From positions 2,012,415-2,076,414 of the forward strand of contig NZ_AP023418.1 in assembly GCF_018408575.1 (NCBI RefSeq): a DNA stretch of 64,000 nt, given 5' to 3'. Below the pieces are notes generated by a model. The model saw only the letters and a list, made by a program, of their open reading frames with translations, was not told the origin of the DNA and searched no databases. Below, one piece after another: positions 12,550 to 26,898 of this stretch (the stretch's first letter is position 1; every line of letters starts with the position of its first letter). The DNA is from Vescimonas coprocola (GTDB taxonomy: Bacteria; Bacillota; Clostridia; Oscillospirales; Oscillospiraceae). The position numbers and the translations under genes are program-made.

Positions 12550-12756
12550 TCAATCCGGATAAAGGTTCAGCTTCTCAAAGGCGGCATCGTCCATGGCTGA
12601 AACTTTACGGAGAACCGAGTCTGCCAAAGCAAAAAGCTCTGACTCGTCCTCCGAAAGCTGTTCCTTCATCAGTGTCAGTGCTTCACACAGCCCTGACCTT
12701 GTGCCAGGGCTGTAAAGCATCATCATGTTCCGCTCATCCTGTGTGAAATCCATCAT
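12550..12756 (-). CDS. TTRAP-like transposon-transfer assisting protein
   Basis: 68 residues, starting MMDFTQDERNMMMLYSPGTRSG, the pattern of the small transposon-transfer assisting (TTRAP) family of Tn1549-like ICEs. It is soluble and largely helical. The ATG overlaps the stop of the YodL gene (ATGA), and an AGGGAG lies just upstream. It directly precedes the giant helicase gene, so the two are probably co-translated. The family name describes context; no biochemical role is known. Confidence 0.75.
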   Translation of the reverse strand: MMDFTQDERNMMMLYSPGTRSGLCEALTLMKEQLSEDESELFALADSVLRKVSAMDDAAFEKLNLYPD

Positions 12757-13349
12757 TCAATCTCCCTTTCCGGGTGGCTCTTGGGCGGCTTATGGGAAAC
12801 ATCCGGCACGGGCTTTTCCTTTAACTGCTCCAACACCGAAGGACGTTCCTCTAATCCGGACGCTTTTCCGTTATTGATGATACCGTCAATCATCCCATAA
12901 TCATCTTCCATTGCCATCTCTGCGTTTTTCAGGTAGTTTTCGGACTTCATAAAGTTTTCCAGCTTCTGAAACCCAACAGAATCTACATAGTGAAAGGATA
13001 CCTCACCGACTACCTTTAAGGCTACGATGTCGCTGACCGACATACTGTGACCACGGAAATCATCCGGGTGGTCAATATTGAACTTTACATACAAATCTTC
13101 CAGCTGCCGATTCACATCCTCGGACATAGAAATGGAGCCATGATAGACCACCTCGTAACGGTCAATCTCAGGCTCCATTTCTTTCTTCTGAAGGTAGCTG
13201 TAATTTGCAAACATGAGCGGGATATTATCGTCTACATCTTCCCGCAGCTGAAGAATCGCATAGGAATCCGTGGGGCTTTCCAGAAAAGCAACCATTCTGT
13301 CATCCGGGGTGGTATTTCCGTGAACATCATCCCATTTTTCGTTTTTCAT
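12753..13349 (-). CDS. YodL domain protein
   Basis: 198 residues. ATG 13349 has AGGAGG 8 bases upstream, so the longer open frame starting at 13451 is not used. The central part (DDRMVAFLESPTDSYAILQL, then YHGSISMSEDVNRQLEDLYVKFN) matches the YodL domain found in ICE proteins of Firmicutes. The C-terminus carries a PSVLEQLKEKP linker-type motif shared with neighbouring ICE proteins. No catalytic residues are visible. It sits in the tight cluster topB, LPD, YodL, TTRAP, helicase. Confidence 0.75.
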   Translation of the reverse strand: MKNEKWDDVHGNTTPDDRMVAFLESPTDSYAILQLREDVDDNIPLMFANYSYLQKKEMEPEIDRYEVVYHGSISMSEDVNRQLEDLYVKFNIDHPDDFRGHSMSVSDIVALKVVGEVSFHYVDSVGFQKLENFMKSENYLKNAEMAMEDDYGMIDGIINNGKASGLEERPSVLEQLKEKPVPDVSHKPPKSHPEREIE

Positions 13350-13362
13350 ATCCGTGTCCTCC

Positions 13363-14208
13363 TTATCGTTCAGGCTCTTTGCGTTTGGGAGAGGGACTGG
13401 CAGGCGCAGCTTTTTCTGCGGCCTGTGCCAGTTTTTCCATGACCGACTCACGCTTCGGAGAGTCGAGCTTATCCAGCTGACTTTTCAGCACTTTGGCAAC
13501 CTCAACCGCAGTTTCCTCACGGGCTTCTTCAATGGCTGTATTCAGGAACTCACGATACGGAGCCGTATTACCAGCGGCAAGATCTGCCTTGATTTCTTGG
13601 ATATGCGCCTGCACATCATCGACCTGATCCATATATTCATAGGGGTCGAAGTTCTCTGCAAAACGGTCGAGCTTAAAAGCAAGCTCAGCGATAGGGTCAT
13701 TGACCACCACCGCCTGTCTGCCGACTTCAAAAGCCTGCTCCATGACATCCTCATAGAACATTGCCCGCAGTTCCCGGCGCTCCAGCCCGAAGGATTCCAG
13801 AATATCCCGGCGGACTTCGAGCATGGACAGTTCAGGGTTATCAACCTGACCGCCATCAATCTCGTTGTAGTTTTCATCCAACAGGGTGTAGTCGTAACCA
13901 TCTTCGCAGGTCTGCACCGCAAGGATTCTATCCTTTCCGACCTTCCATGCGGCTTCATCGCCCATAATCTCAGGCTCCGGCATATAGCTTGCGCCGTTGC
14001 GCTCCATAATTTCTGCAAACTGGCAGATATGAAACACATTGTATCCGATCTGCGTATGATACTCGTCAATGAAGGTGCAGGGCTTCACAACCATTTCATC
14101 CGGGTAGTGAATCTGCACACAGCTGCCATCGGGGATATGAAACAAATCCTTATAATGGCTGTCGATAAATCGGATTTCCTTACCATCCGGGTTGTACTCA
14201 TTTGTCAT
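13363..14208 (-). CDS. ICE accessory protein with LPD-type domains
   Basis: 281 residues with an N-terminal domain beginning MTNEYNPDGKEIRFIDSHYKDLF and a central DPIAELAFKLDRFAENFDPYEYMD motif. I recall both as the LPD28-like and LPD16-like (large polyvalent protein) domains of ICEs; the exact domain names need a profile search. The C-terminal 60 residues are charged and probably extended. The ATG overlaps the stop of the topB fragment (ATGA), showing it was translated with topB before IME1 split that gene. Function is unknown. Confidence 0.7.
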   Translation of the reverse strand: MTNEYNPDGKEIRFIDSHYKDLFHIPDGSCVQIHYPDEMVVKPCTFIDEYHTQIGYNVFHICQFAEIMERNGASYMPEPEIMGDEAAWKVGKDRILAVQTCEDGYDYTLLDENYNEIDGGQVDNPELSMLEVRRDILESFGLERRELRAMFYEDVMEQAFEVGRQAVVVNDPIAELAFKLDRFAENFDPYEYMDQVDDVQAHIQEIKADLAAGNTAPYREFLNTAIEEAREETAVEVAKVLKSQLDKLDSPKRESVMEKLAQAAEKAAPASPSPKRKEPER

Positions 14209-14886
14209 TTGCGCTTTCCTCCATTTTCAAATTCCATACTGAACTTCGTTTTGCCATCATCTGATACCTCCATAAAGACGGTGGCATCAAAGGTGTTGCC
14301 CGTTCTTTCGGACTTGCAATTCTTGAGCTTTACCTTGCCGGAACCAAGCAATTTCTGCGCCGTGGCAGAAGTCATGCTCTTGCCGATGCTCGCAAAGTAG
14401 CGATTGTTTTTCCAGAGGGCAAATTTGCAAGCTCTGTTGGAACAGAAAAATGCCTTGGCTTTGTCCTCTACAGCACTGCCGCAGAGCGGGCATTTGCCGA
14501 TAGAATTGGCTTCTTTCGACATCATAACCTCGGAATCACGGATTACTTCATAGTTCTGAATCAGACCGGCAATCACATCTTTGATCTCGTCCATAAAGTC
14601 CTCGCTGGCATATTCGCCTTTCTCAATGAGCAACAATTTTTCTTCCCAATCCGCCGTCATGGATGGGGACTGAATCTGTTCCGGCATGACTGTTACCAGA
14701 GCCGTACCCTTGTGGGTCGGAATCAGGTGTTTGGTTTTCTTATCACCCTTACGCTCCAGAAAACCGATGCGAACCAGCTTCTCAATGATACCGGCACGGG
14801 TCGCAGGCGTTCCCAAACCTTTGCGCTCCACCTCATCAGGCATTTCGTCCGCACCGGCAGTTTCCATAGCAGAAAGCAGAGTATCC
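14205..14886 (-). pseudogene. topB: 3' fragment of topB (DNA topoisomerase III), cut by IME1
   Basis: Encodes the last about 227 residues of a topoisomerase III: EDTLLSAMETAG, RKGLGTPATRAGIIEKL (a signature of the type IA core) and a C-terminal zinc finger (CPLCG, CSNRAC). In the same frame a TGA lies just inside the IME1 end, so the fragment has no original start; ATG 14867 could give a 220-residue product. The N-terminal 464 residues with the catalytic tyrosine are at 25395-26788. Joining the halves at the shared GA gives HFTEDTLLSA in frame and a total near 691 residues, the normal length. Confidence 0.92.
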
Positions 14887-14932
14887 TCTGAAAGCTTTTG
14901 TCAAGGGGGTGCGTGGATATTTTTCATATTAC

Positions 14933-15130
14933 TTACGCAGATTCTCTCTCTGCTTCTGCCTGAATAATACGTTTCAACCTGTCCTCCGCAGTCAAACCGC
15001 TACTATGGTCAAAAAACACTTTGACTTTATAATTTGTTTTGCCTTGCTTAATCACAAAAACTCCATCCGGTTTGTTTTTCTCCGAATGGTTATTTGGGGT
15101 GGGTAGTGTACTGTTCACAATATTTGTCAT
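14933..15130 (-). CDS. tnpW: TnpW family protein (IME1)
   Basis: 65 residues. ATG 15130 follows AGGAGG with 8-base spacing; the longer frame to 15193 has no such site. The core DGVFVIKQGKTNYKVKVFFD followed by TAEDRLKRIIQAE is the pattern of the transposon-encoded TnpW family. The stop lies 45 bases from the IME1 crossover point, the same distance as tnpW in IME2. Function is not established; position at the end opposite the recombinase is conserved between both elements. Confidence 0.75.
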   Translation of the reverse strand: MTNIVNSTLPTPNNHSEKNKPDGVFVIKQGKTNYKVKVFFDHSSGLTAEDRLKRIIQAEAERESA

Positions 15131-15158
15131 ACGATATTCCTCCTTGAATGAAAAAGCC

Positions 15159-15372
15159 CGACAAGGAAAGGTCTGACAACGAAGTTCCGACAACGGACAT
15201 CAGAAAACCTTTTTTCTTTATCGGGCGATACTATCTTTTTACTATTTCCTTTTTCTTTATAATATTGGTTGTCATGGTTGTCAGAGAGGGAAAAGTGCCG
15301 CAATATCAAGGCTTTCGGGATTTTTGCCCGACAACCAGACCGACAACCGGCTCGACAACCGAAGCGACAACG
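15159..15372. repeat. Iteron-like array of CGACAACC repeats
   Basis: Four copies of CGACAAC(C/G) start at 15329, 15341, 15353 and 15365, an exact 12-base period. Three looser copies stand at 15159, 15174 and 15188, and two inverted copies (GGTTGTCA) at 15267 and 15276. The array fills the gap between the VapE gene and tnpW. Its 12-base phasing resembles iterons bound by replication proteins, so it is a candidate replication origin or operator of IME1; the VapE and CHC2 genes next to it fit that reading. Confidence 0.7.
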
Positions 15373-15377
15373 GGCTT

Positions 15378-16754
15378 TTATTTTTGCTTCAACCATTCTT
15401 CTGGAAGTCCTAACTGTTCCATTTCCTCTGTCGGGATTTCTTGAAAACCATCCATGCTGTTGTCAGGCTCGTTGTCGTTCCTAATACGCTCCCAGCCTTT
15501 TTGTCGGCGGTAAGGCTCTGGAAAATACCTCGGATTGCTGAACGCCATCCAGCCTGTGACAGCGTTATTCATAATGTCATTGATCTCTCGCAGTTCCCAT
15601 TGTTTCGGTTCGTCATAATCATGCCCCAGTGCTTCCTTATAAAGCTGTTTGGAACAGACCATGCTGCCGGAATAGCGTTCCAGATAGTCTAAAATCTGTC
15701 CTGCCTTTGTGTCCTCCGGCATAAAATCCTTTTGGTGGGCTTTCAGATAATCGTTCATAGCCGGACTGAATCTCAGACGGAAATTGCCGCTTCTGTAAAT
15801 CTCCATAGCTTCTGCCCACATCTGATTGATATACTCTCCGGAAGCCTGTTCATCCGCCAAAATATGAACCTCAGCCCTTTCAGGATAGACCATAACCGGA
15901 ACGAAGCGGCGGTTGCCTGTTCGGTCAAGGGGAAGAAAGTCAAGGGTATTAGAAGAACCTCCAAACACACATTGTCGTTTTCTGTCTGCCGGATGTGTTT
16001 CATACGGTATCTTATAGGTTTCCTTTTGGCGGCTCAGAAAGGACTTGATTTCTTCAACGCTCTTAGCGTTAGCGGTTGCAATCATTTCCGACATTTCAAT
16101 AATCCAATGCCCCTGCATTTTGCGGTACACATTTTCATCATCCAGCTTTTTCAAGTCATCAGAGAACCAATCATCATTGACCGCAAGCAAACGGAAGAAA
16201 GAGGACTTTCCGGCTCCCTGACCGCCTACAAGACAGAGCATTACCTCAAATTTACACCCCGGCTTAAAGGCTCGTGAGATAGCACCCAGCAGAAACAACT
16301 TCAATGCTTCATAGGTGTAATCATCTGTATCAGAACCGAGAAAGCGGTGCAGACAGAAGCGTATGCGTTCTGTTCCGTCCCATTGCAAGGCATTGAGAAA
16401 ATCACAGACAGGGTGGTAACGATTTTCATTGGCAATAACCGCAACTGCGTCTATGATTTTCTTCTCTACGGTCAATCCATAGTTTTCTTCAAAATATAGG
16501 AGCAGATATTTCACATCCACATCCGTCAATGTCGGGCTGTCACGATACCAACCGAGGGGCTTCACAATGTCGATTCTTTCGGTCAGAAGATTTTTTCGGA
16601 TAGCCCCTTTCAAAAGTGGGTCATATTGCAGAACACGCTTATAATTTGCGGCAGTATTATAAACCTTACCTTTCTCGCTCTGCTCTAAGCTGTTTCGGAT
16701 TTCTTCTACTGTGCATGGTTCTGTCTGCTGACAGTTCTGCAATTCGCTGTTCAA
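15378..16754 (-). CDS. VapE family (virulence-associated E) ATPase/helicase-like protein
   Basis: 458 residues with a P-loop GGQGAGKS at 177-184, a downstream WIIEMSEM acidic segment and TGNRRFVPV, the layout of VapE/phage-primase C-terminal ATPases. These proteins act with primases in replication of mobile elements. The start is TTG 16754, supported by AAGGAGGTG 7 bases upstream. It overlaps the CHC2 gene by 89 bases, so the pair probably forms one split primase-helicase. The iteron-like array lies directly downstream. Confidence 0.85.
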   Translation of the reverse strand: MNSELQNCQQTEPCTVEEIRNSLEQSEKGKVYNTAANYKRVLQYDPLLKGAIRKNLLTERIDIVKPLGWYRDSPTLTDVDVKYLLLYFEENYGLTVEKKIIDAVAVIANENRYHPVCDFLNALQWDGTERIRFCLHRFLGSDTDDYTYEALKLFLLGAISRAFKPGCKFEVMLCLVGGQGAGKSSFFRLLAVNDDWFSDDLKKLDDENVYRKMQGHWIIEMSEMIATANAKSVEEIKSFLSRQKETYKIPYETHPADRKRQCVFGGSSNTLDFLPLDRTGNRRFVPVMVYPERAEVHILADEQASGEYINQMWAEAMEIYRSGNFRLRFSPAMNDYLKAHQKDFMPEDTKAGQILDYLERYSGSMVCSKQLYKEALGHDYDEPKQWELREINDIMNNAVTGWMAFSNPRYFPEPYRRQKGWERIRNDNEPDNSMDGFQEIPTEEMEQLGLPEEWLKQK

Positions 16755-17304
16755 GTTTTAACACCTCCTTTCTCTGTTCTGCCACAAGTGCTTTTCGTTC
16801 CTCCAATGAACCATACAGAAGAATATCAAGTAGATATTCGATATAGTTCTTCTTATACAGTGCTTCTGCAAACAGGGGATTCCATTCCTCATCCGGCTGT
16901 TTAGGAGCGTATTTCTTTTCCCATTCTCTAAGAAGATGAAAATAATCCGTCAGCACCTTGTAGCAATGATTTTCTTCTTTTTGATACTTCTGTTCCGGTG
17001 TCGGCTCACGAATACGAGGGCGAATACTGGGCTTTTGTCGGCTGTCATAGTTAAGACCAAAATCTTCAGCAAGTTTGACAGCAGCTTCCCTCAGCCCGAT
17101 ACCGAATAGCTTCGCTGTCAGATCAACAGCGTCTCCGGTTGCCCCGCAGCCAAAACAGTAATAGCGTTCATCCAGCTTCATACTGGGGGACTTATCCGAG
17201 TGAAACGGACAGCACGCCATACCAGTGCGACCCACTTTCAAGCCATAGGCTTCTGCGGCTTGTCGGGCAGTAACATTTTCTTTTACAACTTCAAATACAT
17301 TCAT
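16666..17304 (-). CDS. CHC2 zinc-finger primase domain protein
   Basis: 212 residues. The N-terminal half is a CHC2 zinc finger of the DnaG type, with ligands C32, H35, C50 and C53 (CCPFH and YYCFGCGATGDAVDL). The rest is a helical, charged region without a TOPRIM catalytic core, so it likely binds DNA and works with the VapE protein encoded in the overlapping downstream gene. ATG 17304 is preceded by GGAAAGGAG; the longer frame to 17334 is not supported. It follows cargo repeat A. Confidence 0.85.
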   Translation of the reverse strand: MNVFEVVKENVTARQAAEAYGLKVGRTGMACCPFHSDKSPSMKLDERYYCFGCGATGDAVDLTAKLFGIGLREAAVKLAEDFGLNYDSRQKPSIRPRIREPTPEQKYQKEENHCYKVLTDYFHLLREWEKKYAPKQPDEEWNPLFAEALYKKNYIEYLLDILLYGSLEERKALVAEQRKEVLKLEQRIAELSADRTMHSRRNPKQLRAERER

Positions 17305-17330
17305 GTGACTCCTTTCCAGAAACGAAAAAA

Positions 17331-17454
17331 GCACCTGTCATTTTCAAAACGAAAATAGCAAGTGCCTTAAAGTTCCATATTTAATTTTAGGTGCAAAAAA
17401 GCAGGAGACCTTTTCAGATTTCCTGCTTAGTAAAGCTTTGAAGATTTAATTGTG
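17331..17454 (-). repeat. Repeat A copy 1: terminator plus relaxase-tail relic
   Basis: About 124 bases nearly repeated at 18064-18187 and in half-length form at 18887-18939. On the minus strand it holds a hairpin GCAGGA..TCCTGC with a T run (terminator of the 17502 gene), then a relic reading ATGGAACTTTAA that matches the last codons of the relaxase gene (ATGGAACTCTAA), then a second hairpin around GACAGGTGC. Confidence 0.8.
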
Positions 17455-17501
17455 GTTGGGTTGCCAGTTATACAAACTGGAAATTTTCTTTTTAGAATGA
17501 A

Positions 17502-17972
17502 TTATTTAATTTCTACAATAGCACCATATTTCGTATGCGGAAGATATTGTACCTTTAAATAAGTATTTTTATCAATATACCTTGAAAATACTGTGATTTC
17601 GATTTCATCATCTTTAACTTTATCATATAGAAAAATACTTCTTCTTTCAGAAGATATATCTGCACCACCATGAGATTGTTCAGTTACATATCCTTCTGCA
17701 TAACTATACTGTTTGTTTATGATGTAAGGCATATCTAAAACAAAATCTTTCAAATATAAGATTAAAAGAATAGCTACTATAACAAGAATGGTATTAGCCA
17801 ATCGAAGAAATATTATATCATTTTTTCCAGTATATTCTTTTTTTATCGCTTCTTTATCAAAAAATATCGAATAGATAAGTTTTCTTTTTTTAATTAGATA
17901 GATAATGCAAGCAATTAACGCTATAACAAATAATGAAACTCTTATAAACAATCTAAATATAGCAAAATCCAT
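17502..17972 (-). CDS. IME1 cargo membrane protein, unknown
   Basis: 156 residues with two membrane helices (about 5-26 and 52-72) and a hydrophilic C-terminal domain that begins YAEGYVTEQSHGGADISSERR. I do not recognise the family. The gene is AT-rich compared with ICE1. It is a self-contained unit: promoter 18009-18037 upstream, terminator and repeat A downstream. It lies between a copy of repeat A and the CHC2 gene, a site where a resident IME gene pair appears to have been parted. Confidence 0.65.
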   Translation of the reverse strand: MDFAIFRLFIRVSLFVIALIACIIYLIKKRKLIYSIFFDKEAIKKEYTGKNDIIFLRLANTILVIVAILLILYLKDFVLDMPYIINKQYSYAEGYVTEQSHGGADISSERRSIFLYDKVKDDEIEITVFSRYIDKNTYLKVQYLPHTKYGAIVEIK

Positions 17973-18008
17973 AATATCATCCCCTTAAACTTCAAGTTTG
18001 TTGCTTAC

Positions 18009-18037
18009 ATTATACTTCATCAACCTAAAGAATGGAA
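18009..18037 (-). promoter_or_regulatory. Cargo promoter copy 1
   Basis: Minus strand TTCCAT (18032-18037), 17 bases, TATAAT (18009-18014), about 36 bases before the 17972 start. The same promoter block occurs upstream of the cargo genes at 18755 and 22146 with the same spacing. Confidence 0.65.
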
Positions 18038-18063
18038 GATTTTTTCTTGCCTCCCAAAGCAAA

Positions 18064-18187
18064 AGCACCTGTCATTTTCAAAACGAAGACAGCAAGTGTC
18101 TTAGAGTTCCACATTCTATTTTGAGTGCAAAAAAGCAGGAGAACTTTTCAGATTTCCTGCTTAGTAAAGCTGTGAAGATTTAATTGT
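18064..18187 (-). repeat. Repeat A copy 2: terminator plus relaxase-tail relic
   Basis: A near copy of 17331-17454. It follows the lipoprotein gene and precedes the promoter of the next cargo gene. It again carries the GCAGGA/TCCTGC terminator, the GGAACTCTAA relic of the relaxase end and the GACAGGTGC hairpin. Confidence 0.8.
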
Positions 18188-18245
18188 AGTCAGTTTTTCT
18201 TATACCATCCGAAATTTATACTTTAATGTTCTCTCATAACAAAAA

Positions 18246-18755
18246 TCAATTTTGTCCTCCAACAAAAATACCGTTTGGGGGATTATCCCATATAAAATTA
18301 TCCTCAGCCACTTCGCTCTCCAATGCAATTTCAATTTTATATATCCCCACATTTTGAGCATTTTCATCATCCTCACTATACATATAAAAATTCATACAAT
18401 ACCGTTCCTTCTCTGTCAATATGAGATACATACCATCCAATTCCGTTTTCCTTTTACCATAGTTGCTTTCACTTGATGATGCACAATCGCCCTCAAAACT
18501 TTGGATACTGCCCTCAATATAATCGAAAAAATCAGAGATTTCAGTGTCTAAATTCTCAATGCTCTTTTTGCTTTCTTCGGAAAATAGAGATTTGAGTTTC
18601 TCTGAATCCTGTTGCTTACATGCCTCGATAATTTGTTGACACATCTTATCCGTTTCATTTTGTTCAGAGCTAAACCAGTCATTGAAATATTTGTTAGAGC
18701 AGCCTGTTAAACCGAGTATAATAATCACACTGGAAAGCAACAATACTTTTTTCAT
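18246..18755 (-). CDS. IME1 cargo lipoprotein, DUF5104-like
   Basis: 169 residues from ATG 18755 (the longer frame to 18791 adds a segment unlikely to precede a signal peptide). The N-terminus MKKVLLLSSVIIILGLTGC is a lipoprotein signal with the cysteine at residue 19. The mature part includes ESKKSIENLDTEISDFFDYIEGSI, which I recall from DUF5104-type lipoproteins of Lachnospiraceae; this needs a profile check. It would be anchored on the outer face of the cytoplasmic membrane. The gene is preceded by the shared cargo promoter and followed by repeat A. Confidence 0.7.
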   Translation of the reverse strand: MKKVLLLSSVIIILGLTGCSNKYFNDWFSSEQNETDKMCQQIIEACKQQDSEKLKSLFSEESKKSIENLDTEISDFFDYIEGSIQSFEGDCASSSESNYGKRKTELDGMYLILTEKERYCMNFYMYSEDDENAQNVGIYKIEIALESEVAEDNFIWDNPPNGIFVGGQN

Positions 18756-18830
18756 ATAATTACATCCTTTACTGAATAATTGCAAAATCACTTATTGGAT
18801 TAAGGTCATTACAAAAAATTTCTTACTATC

Positions 18831-18859
18831 ATTATACTTCATCAACCTAAAGAATGGAA
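18831..18859 (-). promoter_or_regulatory. Cargo promoter copy 2
   Basis: Minus strand TTCCAT (18854-18859), 17-base spacer, TATAAT (18831-18836), upstream of the lipoprotein gene. The sequence around it is nearly identical to the copies at 18009 and 22226. Confidence 0.65.
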
Positions 18860-18886
18860 GATATTTTCTTACTCCCTAAAGCAAAA

Positions 18887-18939
18887 GCACCTGTCATTTT
18901 CAAAGTGAAAACAGCAAGTGCTTTAGAGTTCCATATCCT
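18887..18939 (-). repeat. Repeat A copy 3 overlapping the relaxase stop
   Basis: Contains the real relaxase end (ATGGAACTCTAA, stop at 18923-18925) followed by the hairpin AGCACTTGC..GACAGGTGCT. This is the resident copy from which the relics in copies 1 and 2 appear to derive. Confidence 0.75.
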
Positions 18940-20155
18940 GTTTTTTGCTTTTTGCCTGATCCGTCCGGCTGACTTCACGCTCTGCAATTTCTTTCTTTTT
19001 GCGGCTCAACTGCTCTATAATAGAATTTTTGGCTTTCTTCTTGATTTGCTCCGTTCCGGCTTTTTTGACCTCCGGTTTCATCAGCGTGGTTTGGATTTTC
19101 TGAATGGTTGATTTCATAGCGTTTGTGATTCTGGCAATCACGCCATCCAATCGTTTCACTGCATACTCAACTTCTTTCTTTGAAGCCTTACGCTCAGGGG
19201 AGAGAACCCACGCTTTAGACTGCTCCACCAGCTTAATATCCTCCTTGTGCGTTTCCAGTTTTACAGTATCAGCAACGACCTCAACCGCCTTGTCATAGGC
19301 AATATCGGCAACCTCGTCCACCAGAGCTTCCACATCTTCAATCTTCATCGTGAGTTCTTCCAACTTTTGCTCCTGTGCTGCCAGTTGCTCCTTTTGCTTG
19401 AAAAGAATATAGTCCTGTTTTTCCAGATAAGCACGACCACCATATTCCGGTTCTTCTTCCAGTTGTAAGCCATGCTTTTTCGCCACATCAAACAACAGCA
19501 CTCGGCAGGCTGAATCGAAAGTCATCTTGCGGTTATTTTTTCTTCCGACAGGCTTCTCCGGTTCTGGCAGTTCAAACCCCAGTGCTTCCAAAGCCTTTTC
19601 CTGTTGTGGGGCAATCTCCCCATATTGATTTTCACAGTCGAACACATGACGCTCGTGAATATGAGGGGTGCTTTCATCCAAGTGCAGTGCCCAATTCAGG
19701 ATATGGACATGAGAGCCGAAACGCTCATTTACGATTTCCATAAATTCTGTGACGATCTCAATGAGCAGTTCTGGTGGAACATGATTATCAAGCGTTCCAA
19801 TCTGATAGACCGTTTCCTCTGGGCAGGTCTTTTTGCTTTTGAGCAAATCTCCGGTTTCCTTATTTCTTTCAGGGTGTCGGTTCTTCACATTTCTTTCGTT
19901 CTGTCCGGTCACAAAATCACGATACCGCTGACGATAAAAAAGCTGTTCCACATCTTCAAAAGTGGCAGACAGCTCATTTTCCTTTTCGGGATTTTTGAAA
20001 TTGCGGAAGCCATTGTAACAGTCCCAATAGAGATTTTGTTTGGCTCGTTCTTCGTCAATGTGTTCGCTGTTGGCAATGTCAAAACTGCGGTCATTGTGCT
20101 TCGGATTATAAACGCCATTCTTTCCGGCTCGTCCATTGTGCCTTGTTAATTTCAC
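18923..20155 (-). CDS. IME1 relaxase, MobV (Pre/Mob, TnpZ-like)
   Basis: 410 residues. The metal-binding motif HLDESTPHIH at 158-167 is typical of MobV plasmid recombination/mobilization enzymes, which include TnpZ of Tn4451. The C-terminal 180 residues form a long charged coiled coil. It would nick an oriT and let IME1 travel through the channel of a conjugative element. ATG 20155 is preceded by AGGAGG-type sequence, and a strong hairpin 90-120 bases upstream is a candidate oriT. Repeat A copy 3 overlaps its stop. Confidence 0.85.
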   Translation of the reverse strand: MKLTRHNGRAGKNGVYNPKHNDRSFDIANSEHIDEERAKQNLYWDCYNGFRNFKNPEKENELSATFEDVEQLFYRQRYRDFVTGQNERNVKNRHPERNKETGDLLKSKKTCPEETVYQIGTLDNHVPPELLIEIVTEFMEIVNERFGSHVHILNWALHLDESTPHIHERHVFDCENQYGEIAPQQEKALEALGFELPEPEKPVGRKNNRKMTFDSACRVLLFDVAKKHGLQLEEEPEYGGRAYLEKQDYILFKQKEQLAAQEQKLEELTMKIEDVEALVDEVADIAYDKAVEVVADTVKLETHKEDIKLVEQSKAWVLSPERKASKKEVEYAVKRLDGVIARITNAMKSTIQKIQTTLMKPEVKKAGTEQIKKKAKNSIIEQLSRKKKEIAEREVSRTDQAKSKKQDMEL

Positions 20156-20159
20156 ATGA

Positions 20160-20436
20160 GTTCCTCCTTCTTTTTGATTTCCCCGACAGGGGAGAAGGGC
20201 AGCGAAGCTGATTCCTTGCGGCTTTCTGCGTCAAGTAATACCCAGTACTAAGTGGCGAAACGCCACTTAACTGGGCAAGGCTGCCGCCCTTGACCTGCAC
20301 AGGGGTATTGCATTCCCTGTACCCATGCACAAAGGGTTGCACCCTCTGTACTCCCGCCCGAACAAACTGACTTCGCCCCGTCTCAAGCTCTGTCAGTTCC
20401 TTCGGTTTTACAAAACAGTCCACCGGACTATTTTGC
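20160..20436. other. Candidate oriT region of IME1
   Basis: 277 bases without a gene, directly upstream of the MobV-like relaxase. At 20241-20275 a hairpin pairs CCCAGT with ACTGGG and, inside it, AAGTGGCG with CGCCACTT around AAA. MobV relaxases usually act at sites just upstream of their own gene. The rest (20276-20436) is GC-rich with short inverted repeats and no open frame that looks coding. Confidence 0.5.
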
Positions 20437-20438
20437 AA

Positions 20439-20518
20439 AAAGAAAAACCGACGCATGATTGCTTTACGCTCAATACATCGGTTTCTTCATCTGACCTTGA
20501 CGGTCATATTCAGTTGTG
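20439..20518 (-). repeat. Repeat B copy 1 (terminator)
   Basis: About 78 bases, repeated at 21472-21549 with two or three mismatches. An arm AAACCGATGTAT pairs imperfectly with ATGCGTCGGTTTTT, acting as a terminator for the minus-strand gene ending at 20541. Confidence 0.75.
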
Positions 20519-20540
20519 GCAGATTAGACAATTTGAAAAA

Positions 20541-21290
20541 TTACTCTGGCATATCTACTGAATAACTTAGATTGTTTCCTCTCTTGTCGCTCTTTAAATC
20601 ATCATAATACCATAGATACATCGTTCTGTCATATACATTGATTTCAATAACACCATCTGGCTTTTGACCTTCTACTTCTAATGAGTAAATTTCCTTATCA
20701 TGTGCATAGCCAAAAACAAATCTGGTATCTGGATAATTTGGATTCAAGTCCTGTTGAAAATCACTTAATTTTAAAGATGAATGAATTAGTTCTGTAATAT
20801 CAGATATAAGAATGCTATCCGCTTTAGTTGTAACCGGTGTAGCATTCATAAACGCATATTGTACAGTTGTTTCCTCCACCTGTTTTTTGCAGCGTGCCAT
20901 CACAAAACCTTGAACGGGATCATTATCGCTTCCTGCCCGATAGAAAATCGTATCATACTGTTTGCCATTCCATATATGCAATATTTCATCAACATGATTA
21001 AGAAAATCTTCTGGAACAGAAAATTCTTCATTTTCAGTATTCAAAGGAGAATTCAAAATAGCTTCTTCGACAGAACTATAATATATGAGTTCAGAATCCT
21101 TTTTATCGTAATCGCTCAAATTGAATTCGACATATGCATTGTCTTTATTGTCATCTTCCGGAACATAAGTATAGCGACCATTTTCAATATGGTCATCATA
21201 ATCAACAAACAGTCCAATACATATCAGTGCTGCAAAAATCAAAAAGACTATTCCTATAATGATTAGCAATATTTTCAAAAATTTTTTCAT
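20541..21290 (-). CDS. IME1 cargo exported/membrane-anchored protein, unknown
   Basis: 249 residues from ATG 21290 (MKKFLKILLI). One N-terminal membrane helix (about 4-30) with no lipobox, then a large hydrophilic domain probably outside the cell. The domain includes ELIYYSSVEEAILNSPL and GFVMARCKKQVEETTVQYAF. I do not recognise it. It has its own promoter (TTGAAT-17-TATAAT, 21324-21352), repeat B at its 3' end and repeat C upstream, forming one of two tandem C-promoter-gene-B units. Confidence 0.65.
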   Translation of the reverse strand: MKKFLKILLIIIGIVFLIFAALICIGLFVDYDDHIENGRYTYVPEDDNKDNAYVEFNLSDYDKKDSELIYYSSVEEAILNSPLNTENEEFSVPEDFLNHVDEILHIWNGKQYDTIFYRAGSDNDPVQGFVMARCKKQVEETTVQYAFMNATPVTTKADSILISDITELIHSSLKLSDFQQDLNPNYPDTRFVFGYAHDKEIYSLEVEGQKPDGVIEINVYDRTMYLWYYDDLKSDKRGNNLSYSVDMPE

Positions 21291-21323
21291 ACAAAAGTCC
21301 ACCTTCTTGCTTCATTTCAGTAA

Positions 21324-21352
21324 ATTATATCATACCGATATGAACAATTCAA
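21324..21352 (-). promoter_or_regulatory. Promoter of the 21290 cargo gene
   Basis: Minus strand TTGAAT (21347-21352), 17-base spacer, TATAAT (21324-21329), 34 bases before the start codon. Confidence 0.65.
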
Positions 21353-21382
21353 TTTACACTCTATCAAGTAGTTTTTTTACTT

Positions 21383-21440
21383 ACCTGTAACGCACATTTC
21401 TGCAAAATCCATAGTCCCCGATACTTTCCTCACAGGCGAT
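21383..21440 (-). repeat. Repeat C copy 1
   Basis: About 57 bases matching 22288-22345 with a handful of changes, including ATCGCCTGTGAGGAAAGTAT on the minus strand. It lies upstream of a cargo promoter in both places. It could be a relic of a coding tail (CEESIGDYGFCRNVRYR then stop) or a structured RNA; I cannot decide. Confidence 0.7.
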
Positions 21441-21471
21441 ATACAGTCGGAATTCTGTCAGCTCATGAAAT

Positions 21472-21549
21472 AAGAAAAACCGACGCATGATCGCTTTACG
21501 CTCAATACATCGGTTTCTTCATCCGACTTTGACGGTCATATTCAGTTGT
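21472..21549 (-). repeat. Repeat B copy 2 (terminator)
   Basis: Near copy of 20439-20518, immediately downstream of the frameshifted DUF6560-like gene. Confidence 0.75.
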
Positions 21550-21577
21550 CTAACATCGTACTGTTATAAAATCTATG

Positions 21578-22146
21578 TCATTTACGATTCTTCTTATGCT
21601 GATTTGTCCAGTAAGATTTTACAGGGATTCTTCTTCTCTCTATATCTTCCATAAATTCTTCTTTATCGATATTACTATCAATGGTAAATAGCTTTTCCCC
21701 ATTTACATATACACGCACAGAACCTTTTTTTCTCTCGCAGTAGGTAATATCCCCAAAACGAAAAGTTCTCTTTTTTCCAAAAGTTGACCGCCATGTGATT
21801 TCATCTCCGTTCACTTCCAGTTTCCACATTACCATATTGACTATTCCGCTTATGCCTACTAAAAAAATATTCCAAATATACAAATGACAAACATATCTTC
21901 TTTTTCCCTAAGACTCATAGCCGTACAACAAGCAAAAAAAATTGTACCTACGATAAATGCCACGACAAGGAATTTCTCTGTTTTTATTGTATAATGCGTT
22001 CTAATTATTCCCTTTTTCTGTTCTTCCTCTCGTTCTTTAGCTCTCTTTTGTTGAAGATTTACAAGATATTTCAAAAGAAGAAGTACAACTAAATAGGGGC
22101 CTATTTGTGTAATTATATTCAAACACATTCGTAAAAAATCATTCAT
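21578..22146 (-). pseudogene. IME1 cargo membrane protein, DUF6560-like, split by a frameshift
   Basis: Two overlapping frames make one protein. The first (ATG 22146) encodes two membrane helices and stops at 21859 after GIFF. The second continues with FLVGISGIVNMVMWKLEVNGDEI and a PH-like soluble domain ending at 21578. The break is at a run of seven T on the minus strand (21861-21867); one more T joins the frames cleanly. I recall the C-terminal part as DUF6560-like. The gene carries the shared cargo promoter (22226-22254) and ends in repeat B. It may be inactive, phase-variable, or the run may be a sequencing error. Confidence 0.7.
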
Positions 22147-22225
22147 TTTTTGCCCTCCATAGTTCCAGCTATATAAAAATGATTGTTTGAAATCGAGTAT
22201 TAAAAACCTCAATTTTTCATATCTC

Positions 22226-22254
22226 ATTATACTTCATCAACTTAAAGAATGGAA
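22226..22254 (-). promoter_or_regulatory. Cargo promoter copy 3
   Basis: Minus strand TTCCAT (22249-22254), 17-base spacer, TATAAT (22226-22231). The block matches the promoters at 18009 and 18831. Confidence 0.65.
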
Positions 22255-22287
22255 GAAAAAATTTTGTGTACAGAGTTCCTGTTCAAA

Positions 22288-22345
22288 CCTTGTAACGCAC
22301 ATTTCCGTAAAATTTATAGTCTCCGATACTTTCCTCACAGGCGAT
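22288..22345 (-). repeat. Repeat C copy 2
   Basis: Upstream partner of repeat C copy 1, located between the resident gene ending at 22394 and cargo promoter copy 3. Confidence 0.7.
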
Positions 22346-22393
22346 AGGCAACGGTCAAAACATCAGGTTTGCACCTGACATTTTAACCGCATA

Positions 22394-22702
22394 TCAGCCC
22401 TGATTATCACAGTATCCCTGCTGGCTGTTCAGCCCATGCTTTTTCGCATATTCACTGGCTTTCTGTCTGCGTTCCTCACTGTAAGGCGGCAGGAAACGGA
22501 TAGACAGACGGGACTTTGCCAGCTCATAAGAAACACCGCCTTGAACATTGGATTTTTCCAGTCGGCAAAGGTCAGGGTACTTCTTAGCAAAAGCAGCCAA
22601 CCTCTTTTTCAATCCGGCGTTGTGGGTGTAGATATTTGCCTTGTCCTCGCCCTCATTAAAGAGAACGATTGTTTCTTTCTCAATCTTCGTCAGTCTCGTC
22701 AT
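22394..22702 (-). CDS. Conserved small IME protein, unknown
   Basis: 102 residues, basic, with MTRLTKIEKETIVLFNEGED at the start and a C-terminal YSEERRQKASEYAKKHGL helix. I recall similar proteins in Tn4451-type and ICE elements, without known function. The start overlaps the end of the preceding gene by 23 bases, and GGGAGGG lies just upstream. It appears to be part of the resident operon tnpV - 22928 - 22702. Confidence 0.65.
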   Translation of the reverse strand: MTRLTKIEKETIVLFNEGEDKANIYTHNAGLKKRLAAFAKKYPDLCRLEKSNVQGGVSYELAKSRLSIRFLPPYSEERRQKASEYAKKHGLNSQQGYCDNQG

Positions 22703-22928
22703 AGCAGCCCTCCCTATGGTTTTTCAACACACGCAGCTTGCAGTAAAAGCAGCGATACCACCTTTCAACACCCTCAGCACTCAGCTTGACGGAAAGCATA
22801 TAAAACAGCTTCTTCGCCACTGGATCGGGTGCAAGGGCAGCTACCATACGCAAACGCTCGACAGTTGCTTTCAGGTTCGGACAGCCAAAGGCATAAAGGG
22901 CTTCCATTTCATTCCGGTTCATCTTCAT
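22680..22928 (-). CDS. Conserved small IME protein, unknown
   Basis: 82 residues from ATG 22928, preceded by AAGGAGG. The protein begins MKMNRNEMEALYAFGCPNLK and continues with RLRMVAALAPDPVAKKLFYML, a helical pattern recurrent in small proteins of Clostridial elements. There are no membrane segments. It overlaps the downstream gene and follows a terminator-like hairpin after tnpV. Function unknown. Confidence 0.65.
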   Translation of the reverse strand: MKMNRNEMEALYAFGCPNLKATVERLRMVAALAPDPVAKKLFYMLSVKLSAEGVERWYRCFYCKLRVLKNHREGCYDETDED

Positions 22929-22960
22929 TGTGTTTTCCTCCTTAAAGTTTGATAAATGAA

Positions 22961-22997
22961 AAGCGACAGACACTTCATAAGGAAATACCTGTCGCTT
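22961..22997 (-). terminator. Terminator after IME1 tnpV
   Basis: AAGCGACAG and CTGTCGCTT form a 9-base stem followed by TTT on the minus strand, between tnpV (ends 23038) and the 22928 gene. Confidence 0.65.
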
Positions 22998-23037
22998 CGT
23001 TTACGATACAAATTTGTTGGTTTTGGACTTGATAAAA

Positions 23038-23421
23038 TCAGCAGTAAATCATTTCCTGTCTGATGATTTCTTCGGCTCGGTTACGGATAGAGTTCATGGA
23101 CTGTACCCACAACATCTGATTGTCTGCTTTCATGGTTTCGGTCACGCCCTCGGCTTGTTTCATCTGCTCAATGATAAGGCTGCACCTTTCCGTTGCCTGT
23201 TCGTTCAGATCAGCAAGGTAAGTATGCAGTTCGCCGGATAAACAGAGGGCAGAGAACCTTGCAGGGCGGTACTGCTCCAAATATGTCCTGTGCAGTCTGC
23301 CCCACATACCGATAGGGCGGTGTTCCTCCGGTAGCTTCAAGTCCGGCACATAGTAATCACCCACAAGAACATAGTCCAGACCGTTGCTTTCGTCATGGAT
23401 TCGTAGTTTCAATTCTGTCAT
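23038..23421 (-). CDS. tnpV: TnpV family protein (IME1)
   Basis: 127 residues: DYVLVGDYYVPDLKLPEEHRP, IGMWGRLHRTYLEQYRP and a C-terminal WVQSMNSIRNRAEEIIRQEM, the TnpV family layout. The start overlaps the recombinase stop by four bases, so they are translated together. Family function is unknown; association with TnpX-type recombinases suggests a role in regulation or excision. Two other tnpV genes are in the window (IME2 and inside the ICE1 helicase gene). Confidence 0.8.
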   Translation of the reverse strand: MTELKLRIHDESNGLDYVLVGDYYVPDLKLPEEHRPIGMWGRLHRTYLEQYRPARFSALCLSGELHTYLADLNEQATERCSLIIEQMKQAEGVTETMKADNQMLWVQSMNSIRNRAEEIIRQEMIYC

Positions 23422-25340
23422 GCTATTTTTTCTCCTTTCACTTTTTGCCGATTTGATTTGCTTGTGGCGTTCTGTTCAACACACACATTGCTATCAGAGC
23501 TTTTTTCTTCTGCTATACGCTCATGCTCCGCAAATTCTTTTGATTTCTCACGAATCTTTTTCATATACTTACGATTGGATTCTCGTTTTCTGCGAAGTCG
23601 TTCCGCCTCTTTTTCAGCAGCAATCCTTTCTTCCTCGGTTGGTTCATGCTGCTCCACAGGTACTTGAAATTGCCCGACATAGTTAAGATATATCTCCACC
23701 TCTGTGGTGCGGTCTGCACCTTTTCCTTGTGGCTCGTGAACCAGTATTTTGTCGATAAATTCATTTATCATGGCAGGAGTAAGTTCTGTAATGTTCTCAT
23801 ACTTTTTAACCAGCTTTAGAAAACGCTCCACATTATTTTGACCGCCTATAATCCGTTGCATATCAGCGGTGTCAGTCTCAATAATCTTGTTCAGCTCGTT
23901 CTGCTCATTTTCATAATCAGTAAGCATACTCTGAAAAAGTCTGTCCGGCAATCTTCCAATCACATTATCTTCATAGATTTTCCTGATAAGCATATCCAGT
24001 TCGTGAACTCGCTTCTGATTTCTTTCAATGCGGTTTTTTACAGTTTCAGAAACAGCAATATCTTTCATCGCCGATTCTTCTTGCAGAGAATAAACAAACT
24101 CCCGCTCATTCAAAGAAACATAATGGCAAGTCTCCTGTATGGTTTTCAGAATGATGCTTTTAAGTGCTTTTGTTGAAATATGGTGGCAAGTACAATGTCG
24201 GTCATACTTCTGATAAGCAAGATTATATGTGGAACATTCATAACAATCTGCCGGATTGGAATAACTTGTCCTTTTTTCGCCTTTGGCAGTATAGTATATT
24301 CTTTCTCGCCCTTTCCGCTGCCTGTGATTATACATCGGCGCACCACAATCAGCACAGTAAATCTTTCCGGTCAGAACATTAGGCTCGCCCATAGGATCTG
24401 CTTTTCTTACATTCTGTCTTAACTTTTGAGCAAGCAGCCATGTTTCTTCATCGACAATAGGCTCTTGTGTATCATCAAAAACCACCCAATCTTCCTTATC
24501 TGCCCTTTTCGTCTTTTTGTCCTTATAGGAATTTTTGAATGTCCTGAAATTGACAGTCTTTCCGATATACTCTGGTCGGGCAATCAGAGTAGTAACCTGA
24601 TTTCCTCGCCACATATACGGATTTTCTTTGTCATAGTTGCTTGCATGATTTCCAAGTCCCTTTTTGCCAAGATAATAAGATGGTCTTTCAATTTTTTCTT
24701 CTGAAAGTTCTCTTGCTATCTGATAAGGTCCTTTTCCCTCAATAGTCATGCGATAAATTCTGCGGACTACTTCAGCAGCTTCTTCATCAATAATCCAATG
24801 GTCGGGGTTTTCGGGGTCTTTCAAATAGCCGTATGGTGGGATATTACTTGTATGAGCGTTGCCGGAAGAACCTCTGGATTTCAGTACAGCTTTAATTTTC
24901 TTACTTGTGTCCCTGACAAACCACTCATTCATGATATTCAGAAAAGGGGCAAACTCACTGGTTTCTTGACGGTCACTGTCAATACCATTATTGATTGCTA
25001 TAAATCGAACTTCCTTTTCTCTAAACAGAATGTCAGTGAAAAAACCTACTTGCAGATGATCTCTGCCGATTCTGGACATATCTTTGCAGATACAGGCAGT
25101 GATTTCTCCGTTTTTAACACCTTCAACAAGTCTGTTCCATGAAGGTCTGTCAAAAGTCGCTCCACTCCAACCATCATCGGTAAAATGAACAAGATTCGTA
25201 AAACCATGTTTCATAGCATAATCTTCAAGCATTTGCTTTTGATGAACTATACTGTTACTCTCTCCAGCATTATCATCATCACGAGACAGTCTTTCATACA
25301 AAGCAGTAATGCCATTGCTTCTATCTTTTTTTCTTCTCAT
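23418..25340 (-). CDS. Large serine recombinase of IME1 (TnpX-like)
   Basis: 640 residues. N-terminal resolvase domain with YERLSRDD, catalytic serine at residue 19, and the conserved CKDMSRIGRD. A recombinase domain follows with PPYGYLKDPENP and a zinc ribbon (CADCG and a later Cys cluster), then a coiled coil and a charged tail. It would excise and integrate IME1 at GA dinucleotides. ATG 25340 has GAAAGGAG upstream and overlaps the stop of the truncated topB frame (ATGA), so translation may be coupled to the interrupted gene. The start lies about 55 bases inside the element. Confidence 0.92.
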   Translation of the reverse strand: MRRKKDRSNGITALYERLSRDDDNAGESNSIVHQKQMLEDYAMKHGFTNLVHFTDDGWSGATFDRPSWNRLVEGVKNGEITACICKDMSRIGRDHLQVGFFTDILFREKEVRFIAINNGIDSDRQETSEFAPFLNIMNEWFVRDTSKKIKAVLKSRGSSGNAHTSNIPPYGYLKDPENPDHWIIDEEAAEVVRRIYRMTIEGKGPYQIARELSEEKIERPSYYLGKKGLGNHASNYDKENPYMWRGNQVTTLIARPEYIGKTVNFRTFKNSYKDKKTKRADKEDWVVFDDTQEPIVDEETWLLAQKLRQNVRKADPMGEPNVLTGKIYCADCGAPMYNHRQRKGRERIYYTAKGEKRTSYSNPADCYECSTYNLAYQKYDRHCTCHHISTKALKSIILKTIQETCHYVSLNEREFVYSLQEESAMKDIAVSETVKNRIERNQKRVHELDMLIRKIYEDNVIGRLPDRLFQSMLTDYENEQNELNKIIETDTADMQRIIGGQNNVERFLKLVKKYENITELTPAMINEFIDKILVHEPQGKGADRTTEVEIYLNYVGQFQVPVEQHEPTEEERIAAEKEAERLRRKRESNRKYMKKIREKSKEFAEHERIAEEKSSDSNVCVEQNATSKSNRQKVKGEKIA

Positions 25341-26788
25341 GCTGAACTCCTTTCTTCAATTCCTATCCACTCCTTACGCTCACAAAATATCACATCGGTA
25401 AAGTGTTTAGGGGGAGATGTTTTCCCTTCCTTGATTTCCGTGCCGCTGACGGTCATTTCGTCACCAACGGAAACAGAAGGGAGTGTCTGCACGTTTTCGT
25501 CGGATTTTGTCGAATCATTTTTCTGAACCAGAGCTTTCCATCCATCCTGCACAACAGTTTTGCCTTTGGTGGAAAACACGGTACCGCCACAGTCCAGCTC
25601 AATAACTGTCTCTGCGTATCGGTGCGGATCGCCAACAGCTACGCACAACCGATTCGAGATCAGTTGCAAAATTGCAAGTTCACCCTTGGGAAGTTCGCTC
25701 AGATTGCATTTCTGCAATTCTCTGGTCGGAATGATGGCATGGTGATCTGTGACCTTTTTGTTATTCACAACCTGCTCTGCATGAACTGGTATGTTATCCA
25801 CATCCTCCACGGGGAATGTGTGGAAAGCCAGCTTTACGAGGTCGGTCAGGCTATGTGCCATATCTTCCGTCAGAAACCTGCTGTCGGTACGGGGATAAGT
25901 GACCAGTTTCTTTTCATAGAGGTTCTGCGTGTAGTCCAAGGTCTGCTGTGCCGTGTAGCCAAGCACACGGTTGGCTTCTCTCTGTAAACTGGTCAGGTCA
26001 TAGAGCGCAGGCGGCTTTTCTGTTTTCTCCTTACATTCAGCTTTCTGAACGATTGCCACCGAACAGCTTTGTTTGACAGCTTCGGCTGCTGCCTTGGTTT
26101 TGAAGCGTTCGCTTGCAGCCGTAAAACCATCCAATCCAATCTGAACTGTGTAGAACAGTTCAGGCTTGAATGCGGAAATGGCAGCTTCTCGCATAACAGC
26201 CATAGCAAGGGTAGGGGTCATAACACGACCAACATTCAGGGTCTGCCCGTAAAGGGTCGAAAAAAGTCGAGTAGCGTTAATACCAACAATCCAGTCGGCT
26301 CGTTCTCGACACAGTGCTGCTTCATACAAAGCATCATATTCCGTTCCAGACCTGAGATTTTCAAAGCCCTCCTTGATTGCTACATCTTCCATCGAGGAAA
26401 TCCAAAGCCGCTCAAACGGCTTTCTGCACCCGGCTTTGTGGTACACCAACCGAAAGATCAGCTCGCCCTCACGACCGGCATCTGTTGCACACACAAGACT
26501 CGCAACATCTTCTCTGGCCATGAGCTTTTTCAGAATCCCAAACTGTTTTTTCGTACCGGCAGAAACCTCATACTGCCAGTCCATCGGGAAGATAGGAAGG
26601 TCTGCATAAGCCCATTTGCTGTACTTCGCATCATAGACTTCCGGCTGTGCCAGCTCCACCAAATGCCCTACACACCAGCTGACCACATATCCGTTTCCCT
26701 CTAAGTAGCCATCCTCACGCTTGGCAGCACCTAACACTTTGGCAATACTCTGTGCAACCGAAGGCTTTTCAGCCAAAACTAATTTCAT
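25337..26788 (-). pseudogene. topB: 5' fragment of topB (DNA topoisomerase III), cut by IME1
   Basis: Encodes the first 464 residues of a topoisomerase III: MKLVLAEKPSVAQ, the TOPRIM acidic cluster ATDAGREGELIFR, and the catalytic tyrosine in TYPRTDSR. After HFT the frame enters IME1 and adds 19 foreign residues before a stop at 25337. ATG 26788 is chosen over 26794 because AAGGAG is 9 bases upstream of it. The core enzyme is mostly present but the last quarter, with the zinc finger, is detached at 14205-14886. The product could retain partial activity; that is not shown. Confidence 0.92.
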
Positions 26789-26898
26789 TTGCATCTGCTC
26801 CTTTCACAAAAAAATAAGCAGCCACACACCGTAGTGCATGACTGCTATGTAAAAAGTTCGGAAAGGATTTTTGCAACCTGATACAATTTTCTGTTCTA

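Follow-up and report, generated by a model that had tools for sequence, protein, structure and literature searches.

An integrative mobilizable element (IME) of gut Firmicutes, about 10.5 kb long, lies within a 64,000-nucleotide stretch of the Vescimonas coprocola genome (contig NZ_AP023418.1, positions 2,012,415 to 2,076,414; hereafter the window). It probably carries two variable arrays of orphan immunity cassettes that are changed by homologous recombination between repeats. A cassette usually consists of a single small gene for a membrane protein, an exported protein or a lipoprotein, and sometimes of more than one gene; many cassettes have a shared promoter block, and they end in a terminator-like hairpin. 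At the second of the two sites, a copy of the relaxase 3' end plus hairpin follows each cassette. Host homologous recombination across the repeats of 53-84 nt, as well as within related alleles of the cargo, would add, delete, duplicate and swap cassettes, and the IME and its host conjugative elements would spread them. The cargo would make the host immune to the toxins of its Firmicutes competitors, the DUF5104 lipoproteins countering toxins that have a DUF4474 domain.

Organization of the two cassette sites

In transcription order on the minus strand, site 1 reads orf102, repeat D5, promoter block P3, DUF6560 (frameshifted), repeat D4, D5, mem249, D4 and relaxase, and site 2, from relaxase to primase, reads relaxase, repeat A, P2, DUF5104 lipoprotein, hairpin B, A, P1, mem156, hairpin B, A and primase. 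The features are as follows (ORF, open reading frame).

22394..22702, minus: orf102, conserved backbone gene, site-1 border (comparison with other IME copies)
22291..22346, minus: repeat D5, first copy (repeat search of the raw sequence)
22225..22254, minus: promoter block P3 (pattern match)
21578..22146, minus: site-1 cassette 1, DUF6560 membrane protein, frameshifted (ORFs 21859-22146 and 21578-21883; PF20197)
21466..21549, minus: repeat D4, first copy, terminator-like hairpin (repeat search, fold)
21386..21441, minus: repeat D5, second copy, linked to D4 via a conserved spacer (repeat search)
20541..21290, minus: site-1 cassette 2, mem249, exported or membrane protein (sequence comparison)
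20434..20517, minus: repeat D4, second copy, adjoining the backbone upstream of the relaxase (repeat search)
18923..20155, minus: relaxase gene, between both cassette sites (Mob_Pre, below cut-off)
18884..18936, minus: repeat A, native copy, last relaxase codons, stop and terminator-like hairpin
18830..18859, minus: promoter block P2 (pattern match)
18246..18755, minus: site-2 cassette 1, DUF5104 lipoprotein, 169 aa (PF17117, E 6.2e-25)
18130..18164, minus: cassette hairpin B, the second terminator-like hairpin (read on the sequence; fold of the hairpin type)
18062..18114, minus: repeat A, second copy (relaxase relic and hairpin)
18008..18037, minus: promoter block P1 (pattern match)
17502..17972, minus: site-2 cassette 2, mem156 membrane protein (family alignment A1)
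17395..17429, minus: cassette hairpin B, second copy (read on the sequence)
17328..17380, minus: repeat A, third copy (relaxase relic and hairpin)
16666..17304, minus: primase-like gene with CHC2 zinc finger, site-2 border (PF01807, E 7.9e-16)

The promoter blocks are TTCCAT-17-TATAAT sequences on the minus strand, two identical over 30 bp and the third one base off. With up to three mismatches allowed, the pattern matched three times in the 2.56-Mb genome, each time in the window, and a reversed control pattern matched nowhere. An earlier sequence-only reading of this DNA had assigned near-identical blocks to three cargo genes, and all three were recovered. The gene that it began at 22146 is indeed present, but a frameshift splits one DUF6560 protein into two ORFs, which match PF20197 at positions 1-87 (E 1.5e-35) and 86-174 (E 6.7e-49); unsplit copies are present in relatives.

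Repeat A has a 53-nt core and three copies in the window. The native copy is the relaxase's actual end, with MEL-stop and hairpin, and the other two carry relics of that end, in agreement with the proposal that these repeats hold relaxase 3'-end relics and that the cargo lies beside a resident gene whose end was duplicated, the site-2 repeat being derived from the relaxase gene end. At site 1, D4 (84 nt, 94%) and D5 (56 nt, 91%) flank two tandem units; the bracketing thus stood, but not the idea of two promoter-gene units, as the mem249 unit lacks the shared promoter and has a -10-like sequence of its own (by eye). For each of the three hairpin types, a single example was folded and proved far more stable than shuffled sequences (z-scores -4.3, -3.4 and -5.5), and the hairpin B type gave -15.3 kcal/mol. 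We regard the blocks as candidate promoters and the hairpins as terminator-like, the activity of both being predicted. Just upstream of the relaxase, the inverted repeat GCAAAATAGTCCGGTGGACTGTTTTG (20411-20436) resembles an origin of transfer by eye.

Cassette content differs between the same repeats

Relatives were gathered with a loosened promoter pattern from 84,980 species, each represented by a single genome, which gave 15 stretches on 12 contigs of 11 genomes, and further from a Subdoligranulum plasmid record (94.9% identical across the full 5.1 kb), a fragment filed as phage, one IMG/VR contig, and genomes G018 and, via DUF6560, G349 and G389. Among the 149 genomes of the relatives search, the promoter block occurred in two, the window genome and G018. 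Eighteen further loci were read, 17 of which form the IME clade together with the window (17 genomes or records, one genome having two loci); the eighteenth, L031, belongs to a different element outside the clade. Backbone proteins were at least 96% identical to those of the window in 89 of 94 comparisons, the lowest being 91.7%, with the hybrid locus L026 left out. This locus, from Dorea phocaeensis, combines clade-like orf102 (95%) and DUF6560 cassette (99-100%) with a relaxase of 56% identity, the break lying near the relaxase start. Locus L021 (MT839825.1) is part of this IME, in a record that was classed as a bacteriophage scaffold. In the viral collections, the promoter pattern occurred in one contig and the D4-D5 junction in the same contig, whereas neither repeat A nor the mem156 family was found there; mem156 occurred among plasmids in the Subdoligranulum record only and among phages in none.

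At site 1 (orf102 to relaxase), 14 complete arrays showed seven configurations, alleles of one family being counted as one kind. The cargo is coded c (a pair of 131 and 148 aa), d (158 aa), e (162 aa), f (215 aa), g (255 aa) and h (257 aa).

DUF6560 and mem249: eight arrays (window, L022, L023, L032, L033, L034, L123, L124)
DUF6560, c and mem249: L025
d, c, c and mem249: L036
f and c: L035
e: L030
g: L029
h and DUF6560: L026

L024, L027 and L028 are incomplete at this site, and L021 ends before it. At site 2 (relaxase to primase), 14 complete arrays with a clade relaxase showed six configurations.

Empty: L023, L124
Lipoprotein: L032, L123
Lipoprotein and mem156: seven arrays (window, L022, L025, L030, L033, L034, L035)
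One other configuration each: L027, L036, L021

Here L029 is cut by a contig end, and L024 and L028 end before the site; L026, with its diverged relaxase, is empty. Between the same repeats, relatives therefore hold units that differ in number and in kind, so that the test proposed with the sequence-only reading came out positive, and since empty sites exist, gene presence or absence follows the repeats. Its description of every unit as a promoter-ORF-terminator module was too general: the hairpins fold strongly and many units have the block, but the mem249, f215 and h257 units lack it.

Probable recombination between repeats and within alleles

The junctions are clean, and the sites vary at the borders of the repeats. 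Colinearity between the window and L023 breaks off at base 8118 and resumes at base 9621 (window-oriented), both points lying inside repeat A, and the difference is the stretch between two A copies. Homology between the window and L036 ends 3 bases past the promoter and starts again at D4. Furthermore, L036 contains cassette c in tandem, 1180 bp each with two mismatches, both in D5, and this duplication is evidently recent. The same cassette occurs near-identically, in different hosts and with other neighbours, in L025 and L035.

The 36 copies of repeat A have nine core sequences, two of which have the relaxase or a relic on their left side and two or more different contexts on their right. 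Five of the eight variable core positions tested show all four combinations with both the left and the right context, a four-gamete pattern. The cargo alleles are mosaics as well: the mem249 gene of L034 equals that of L036 in its first part and that of L033 (96-98%) in its second, and the DUF6560 gene of L123 switches likewise between L034 and L033. A haplotypes mixed with both contexts, together with mosaic alleles, fit homologous recombination over repeats and related alleles, and we infer that host recombination of the RecA type is the agent of cassette change and that new cassettes can also enter.

A relaxase DNA query matched 38 of 397 genomes, 5 of the IME clade and 33 outside it, one of the latter (G151) being L026, which was counted separately. 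Eighteen diverged relaxase loci were obtained, 16 from genomes among these 33 and two as second copies in the clade genomes G157 and G158; L172, L175 and L185 were unreadable at site 2. All 15 readable copies had no cassette there, the relaxase stop lying about 20-155 bp from primase (or vapE), and three of them (L183, L184, L189) had an A-like hairpin at the relaxase end by blastn. D4-like sequence was likewise found upstream of the diverged relaxase in L172 and L175. On this evidence, the A and D4 hairpins look native and the arrays derived.

Cargo families and their toxin neighbours

The window lipoprotein belongs to DUF5104 and the split gene to DUF6560, one half of which also weakly matches a 'tandem five-TM' family, below cut-off. 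Among ten other cargo ORFs scanned, two were DUF6560-like and the other eight gave no match above cut-off. Several cargo proteins form one family (A1) or are DUF6560-like, and families without detected similarity, including DUF5104, mem156, DUF6560 and mem249, occur at one site.

Among 250 genomes from the family of the Blautia host, IME carriers included, DUF5104 scored above cut-off in 21 and DUF6560 in 16. Three toxin-like proteins have in common a C-terminal DUF4474 domain (E 1e-8 to 9e-10) and differ in their N-terminal parts, one LXG, one RHS repeats and one VWA; DUF5104-type genes lie after each of them. The toxin-like gene has the DUF5104 gene as its immediate successor in L117 and L121, and in G381 toxin domains alternate with DUF5104 genes. 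A DUF4474 domain profile matched at 10 of 27 non-IME DUF5104 loci (about 1.5 kb on each side), in six clusters and 4 of 18 genomes; three of the six clusters supplied the profile and three are independent. These neighbourhoods suggest that DUF5104 may be an immunity family against the neighbouring DUF4474 toxin; the sequence-only reading had assigned the cargo no function. For the type VII secretion system (T7SS), the available text of PMC12744356 describes membrane toxins with membrane immunity proteins.

The profile found the DUF4474-like domain in none of 14 genomes with the promoter or the IME, and matched 4 of 4 genomes known to have it. G155, one of the 14, has the promoter alone, in another element; G152 and three single records stand outside the set. 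PF14751 alone had given no match in the 14 genomes, and the search was redone with the domain profile and the four known-positive genomes. Weak matches to DUF6560 that lie next to household genes (L109, L110, L112) are not taken as supporting evidence.

Cargo families also stand together in other arrays: mem249, DUF6560 and j in L140, mem249 and DUF6560 in L125, DUF6560 and f in L107 and L108, mem156 and DUF6560 in L046, and f and mem249 in L111. Pfam found little in ten further array neighbours. L139, L107 and L108 form a second array kind, with DUF6560, f215 and mem249 families plus a shared 400-aa gene, in two contents across three genomes and not tied to this IME. In L111 (2760-14616), from a Blautia-family genome, a tyrosine recombinase (PF00589, E 6e-44) heads a row of about ten co-oriented genes, most of which encode small membrane or secreted proteins, with relatives of f215, DUF6560 and mem249; this single case resembles, in layout, the recombinase-associated acquired interbacterial defence (rAID) arrays discussed below, and no shared intergenic repeat was found in it.

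By eye, a toxin-like fragment with a glycine-rich stretch lies in the site-2 cargo of L036 (oriented, 13127-13576) and L021 (1613-2011). The L036 fragment directly precedes a mem156-family gene, had no Pfam match and found no fuller relative, only itself, in the 250 genomes.

The carrier element

The carrier and its host element are laid out as follows.

14888..25396, unstranded: cassette-bearing IME, nested within the topB gene of a larger conjugative element (homology ends)
23418..25340, minus: large serine recombinase of the IME (PF07508, PF00239)

Homology to other copies ends near 14888 (within tens of bases) and near 25396 (up to about 140 bases). The N part (25337-26794) and C part (14205-14867) of topB match adjoining parts of one topoisomerase profile, the gene being split by the IME where its product reads, by eye, SPPKHFTD | EDTLLSAMETAG. 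The topB parts of the host elements are about 40-100% alike; the IME thus occupies the topB genes of many different elements, and since it abuts topB in other copies too, topB seems to be its integration target.

With its own serine recombinase, a relaxase, defined ends and no transfer-pore protein among the scanned ORFs, the element has the predicted properties of an IME. The relaxase matches Mob_Pre with E 0.0027, below cut-off; a short match lies beneath an annotated MobQ relaxase in Vescimonas, and the Subdoligranulum plasmid record as a whole is typed MOBV. Pfam and NCBIfam found neither an integron-type integrase nor a tyrosine recombinase among the main ORFs scanned in the window IME, and no dedicated cassette recombinase was among the IME ORFs scanned. 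Its orf127 (23038-23421) matches PF14198 (E 1.4e-42), the TnpV family, whose members are encoded by transposons.

The host element has TraG-like, TrbL-like, NlpC/P60 and MobA/MobL genes, a set expected of a conjugative element, and is read as one. Host-element genes at 12753-14867 and 25337-26794 (the topB halves, orf281 and orf232) have 100% protein identity to Clostridium fessum (L033), hinting that the whole nested element was recently transferred.

In L031 (7444-8147; Clostridium sp. AT4), the different element mentioned above, the promoter block and a piece of D5 stand upstream of a lincosamide nucleotidyltransferase-like gene. Its assignment as Lnu(C) was rejected, the nearest NCBIfam families being Lnu(AN2) and Lnu(A), below cut-off.

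Discussion

Several observations weigh against immunity arrays remodelled by homologous recombination. Three of the eight variable core positions of repeat A show only three combinations, and the copies are related, so that the four-gamete result is a pattern and no formal test; moreover, recombination does not explain the origins of D5 and of the first relaxase-end duplication. Most loci were found via the promoter, and because this served as bait, the counts lean to occupied arrays. As for immunity, 17 of the 27 DUF5104 loci have no DUF4474 domain, the window lipoprotein scores 72 bits against DUF5104 proteins without a DUF4474 neighbour and 65 bits against toxin-linked ones, and the gene next to the toxin in L119 is a weak DUF5104 relative, the clear copies following two genes later. 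The sole RHS-like DUF6560 neighbour (L113, by eye, no Pfam match) belongs to a below-cut-off match, no complete toxin neighbour was found for mem156 or mem249, and mem156 relatives are rare (7 of 250 genomes: three IME carriers, one clear and three weak). Finally, the lipoprotein weakly matches EexN (E 0.001) and TraV (E 0.003), both below cut-off, so that another function is possible.

Integron cassettes are small gene units that end in a hairpin and form variable arrays, and the present arrays are like them in this layout only. Unlike integrons, they have promoters in many units, a duplicated resident gene end and haplotypes mixed on both repeat sides, and no IntI-type integrase was found in the scanned IME ORFs, no dedicated attC search having been run. 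The sequence-only reading had seen here a modular capture process different from integrons; the difference is borne out by the lack of an integron-type integrase in the scanned ORFs, the promoter blocks in many cassettes and the repeat taken from a resident gene end, but a new capture process is not supported, because recombination between repeats can explain what is seen. A bolder version of that idea, which we find rather unlikely, is an integrase-free integron analogue for anti-toxin cargo, in which the IMEs would give gut Firmicutes a mobile, modular store of acquired immunity to competitors' toxins and their own gene-end hairpins would serve to dock, stack and swap any repeat-bearing cassette at the two sites during conjugative spread, possibly with hairpin recombination of single-stranded transfer DNA.

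It is unlikely that the cassettes are entry-, surface- or superinfection-exclusion genes of the IME or of an integrative and conjugative element, varied to set exclusion groups. Small membrane proteins and lipoproteins adjoining the relaxase would suit such a role, as would the EexN and TraV matches; however, homologs lie after polymorphic toxins or in other small-gene arrays, site 2 is free of cassettes in all 15 readable diverged IME-like copies, and PADLOC matches of the window cargo are weak (best E 0.0035).

A dedicated cassette system, whose hairpin repeats would be attC-like sites for a site-specific recombinase (the IME serine recombinase or host Xer), appears quite improbable. The strong hairpins at unit ends, the layout common to two different sites of one element and the tyrosine recombinase heading the immunity-type array L111 speak for it, whereas core haplotypes mix on both repeat sides rather than at one point, mosaic breaks also fall within coding regions, A-like hairpins occur in cassette-free relatives (3 of 15), and the scanned IME ORFs include no tyrosine recombinase.

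Simple tandem duplication of a single ancestral cargo gene, with later divergence of the copies, although seen in the recent L036 copy and compatible with the A1 and DUF6560-like proteins, is very improbable as the general explanation, given near-identical cassettes with other neighbours in different hosts, and as sole cause is refuted by unrelated cargo between the same repeats, remaining a component.

Returning to immunity arrays changed by homologous recombination, the closest kind, on our best reading, is that of mobile orphan immunity arrays, with this system as the Gram-positive counterpart of Bacteroidales rAID arrays, orphan immunity arrays directed against a type VI system. Both, as far as the available text of PMC12247911 goes, have co-oriented short genes read as orphan immunity genes and conserved intergenic sequence, in gut bacteria (PMC12247911). 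Co-orientation is seen here, immunity is suggested by the neighbours of homologs, with the DUF4474-like domain in 0 of 14 genomes, and the D4-D5 junctions and A repeats between units provide conserved intergenic motifs, as judged within these arrays. Unlike rAID arrays, the present ones occur in Firmicutes, on an IME, with membrane and lipoprotein cargo, a promoter block in many units and a site-2 repeat made of a resident gene 3' end plus hairpin; no tyrosine recombinase was found among the IME ORFs scanned, the IME recombinase being a large serine recombinase.

The T7SS esaG/tipC tandem immunity clusters, in the portion of PMC9484751 consulted, are likewise immunity genes of Firmicutes, and recombination within short blocks of homology alters their copy number. 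Those clusters consist of recombining paralogues from a single family, with the blocks inside the genes (PMC9484751), whereas here one array holds families without detected similarity, lying between non-coding repeats on a mobile element. IME_Rho_tet, as presented in the available text of PMC12904643, is also a group of gut Bacillota IMEs that have a relaxase and a serine recombinase and occur in many species; that family, set apart here by description, is well conserved in structure and carries tet genes, and the terms immunity, cargo and topoisomerase were absent from the main text as available (PMC12904643). In the open-access literature searched, partly as incomplete texts, we recognized no published account of the cassette arrays of this IME, and DUF4474, DUF5104 and DUF6560 appeared in no paper.

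The arrays form a natural set on one near-identical backbone, from which cassette gain, loss and swapping are directly readable. If the favoured explanation is true, DUF5104/DUF4474, and possibly DUF6560, would become testable immunity families, and the element would reveal a means by which Gram-positive commensals may share their defences against LXG, RHS and similar toxins.

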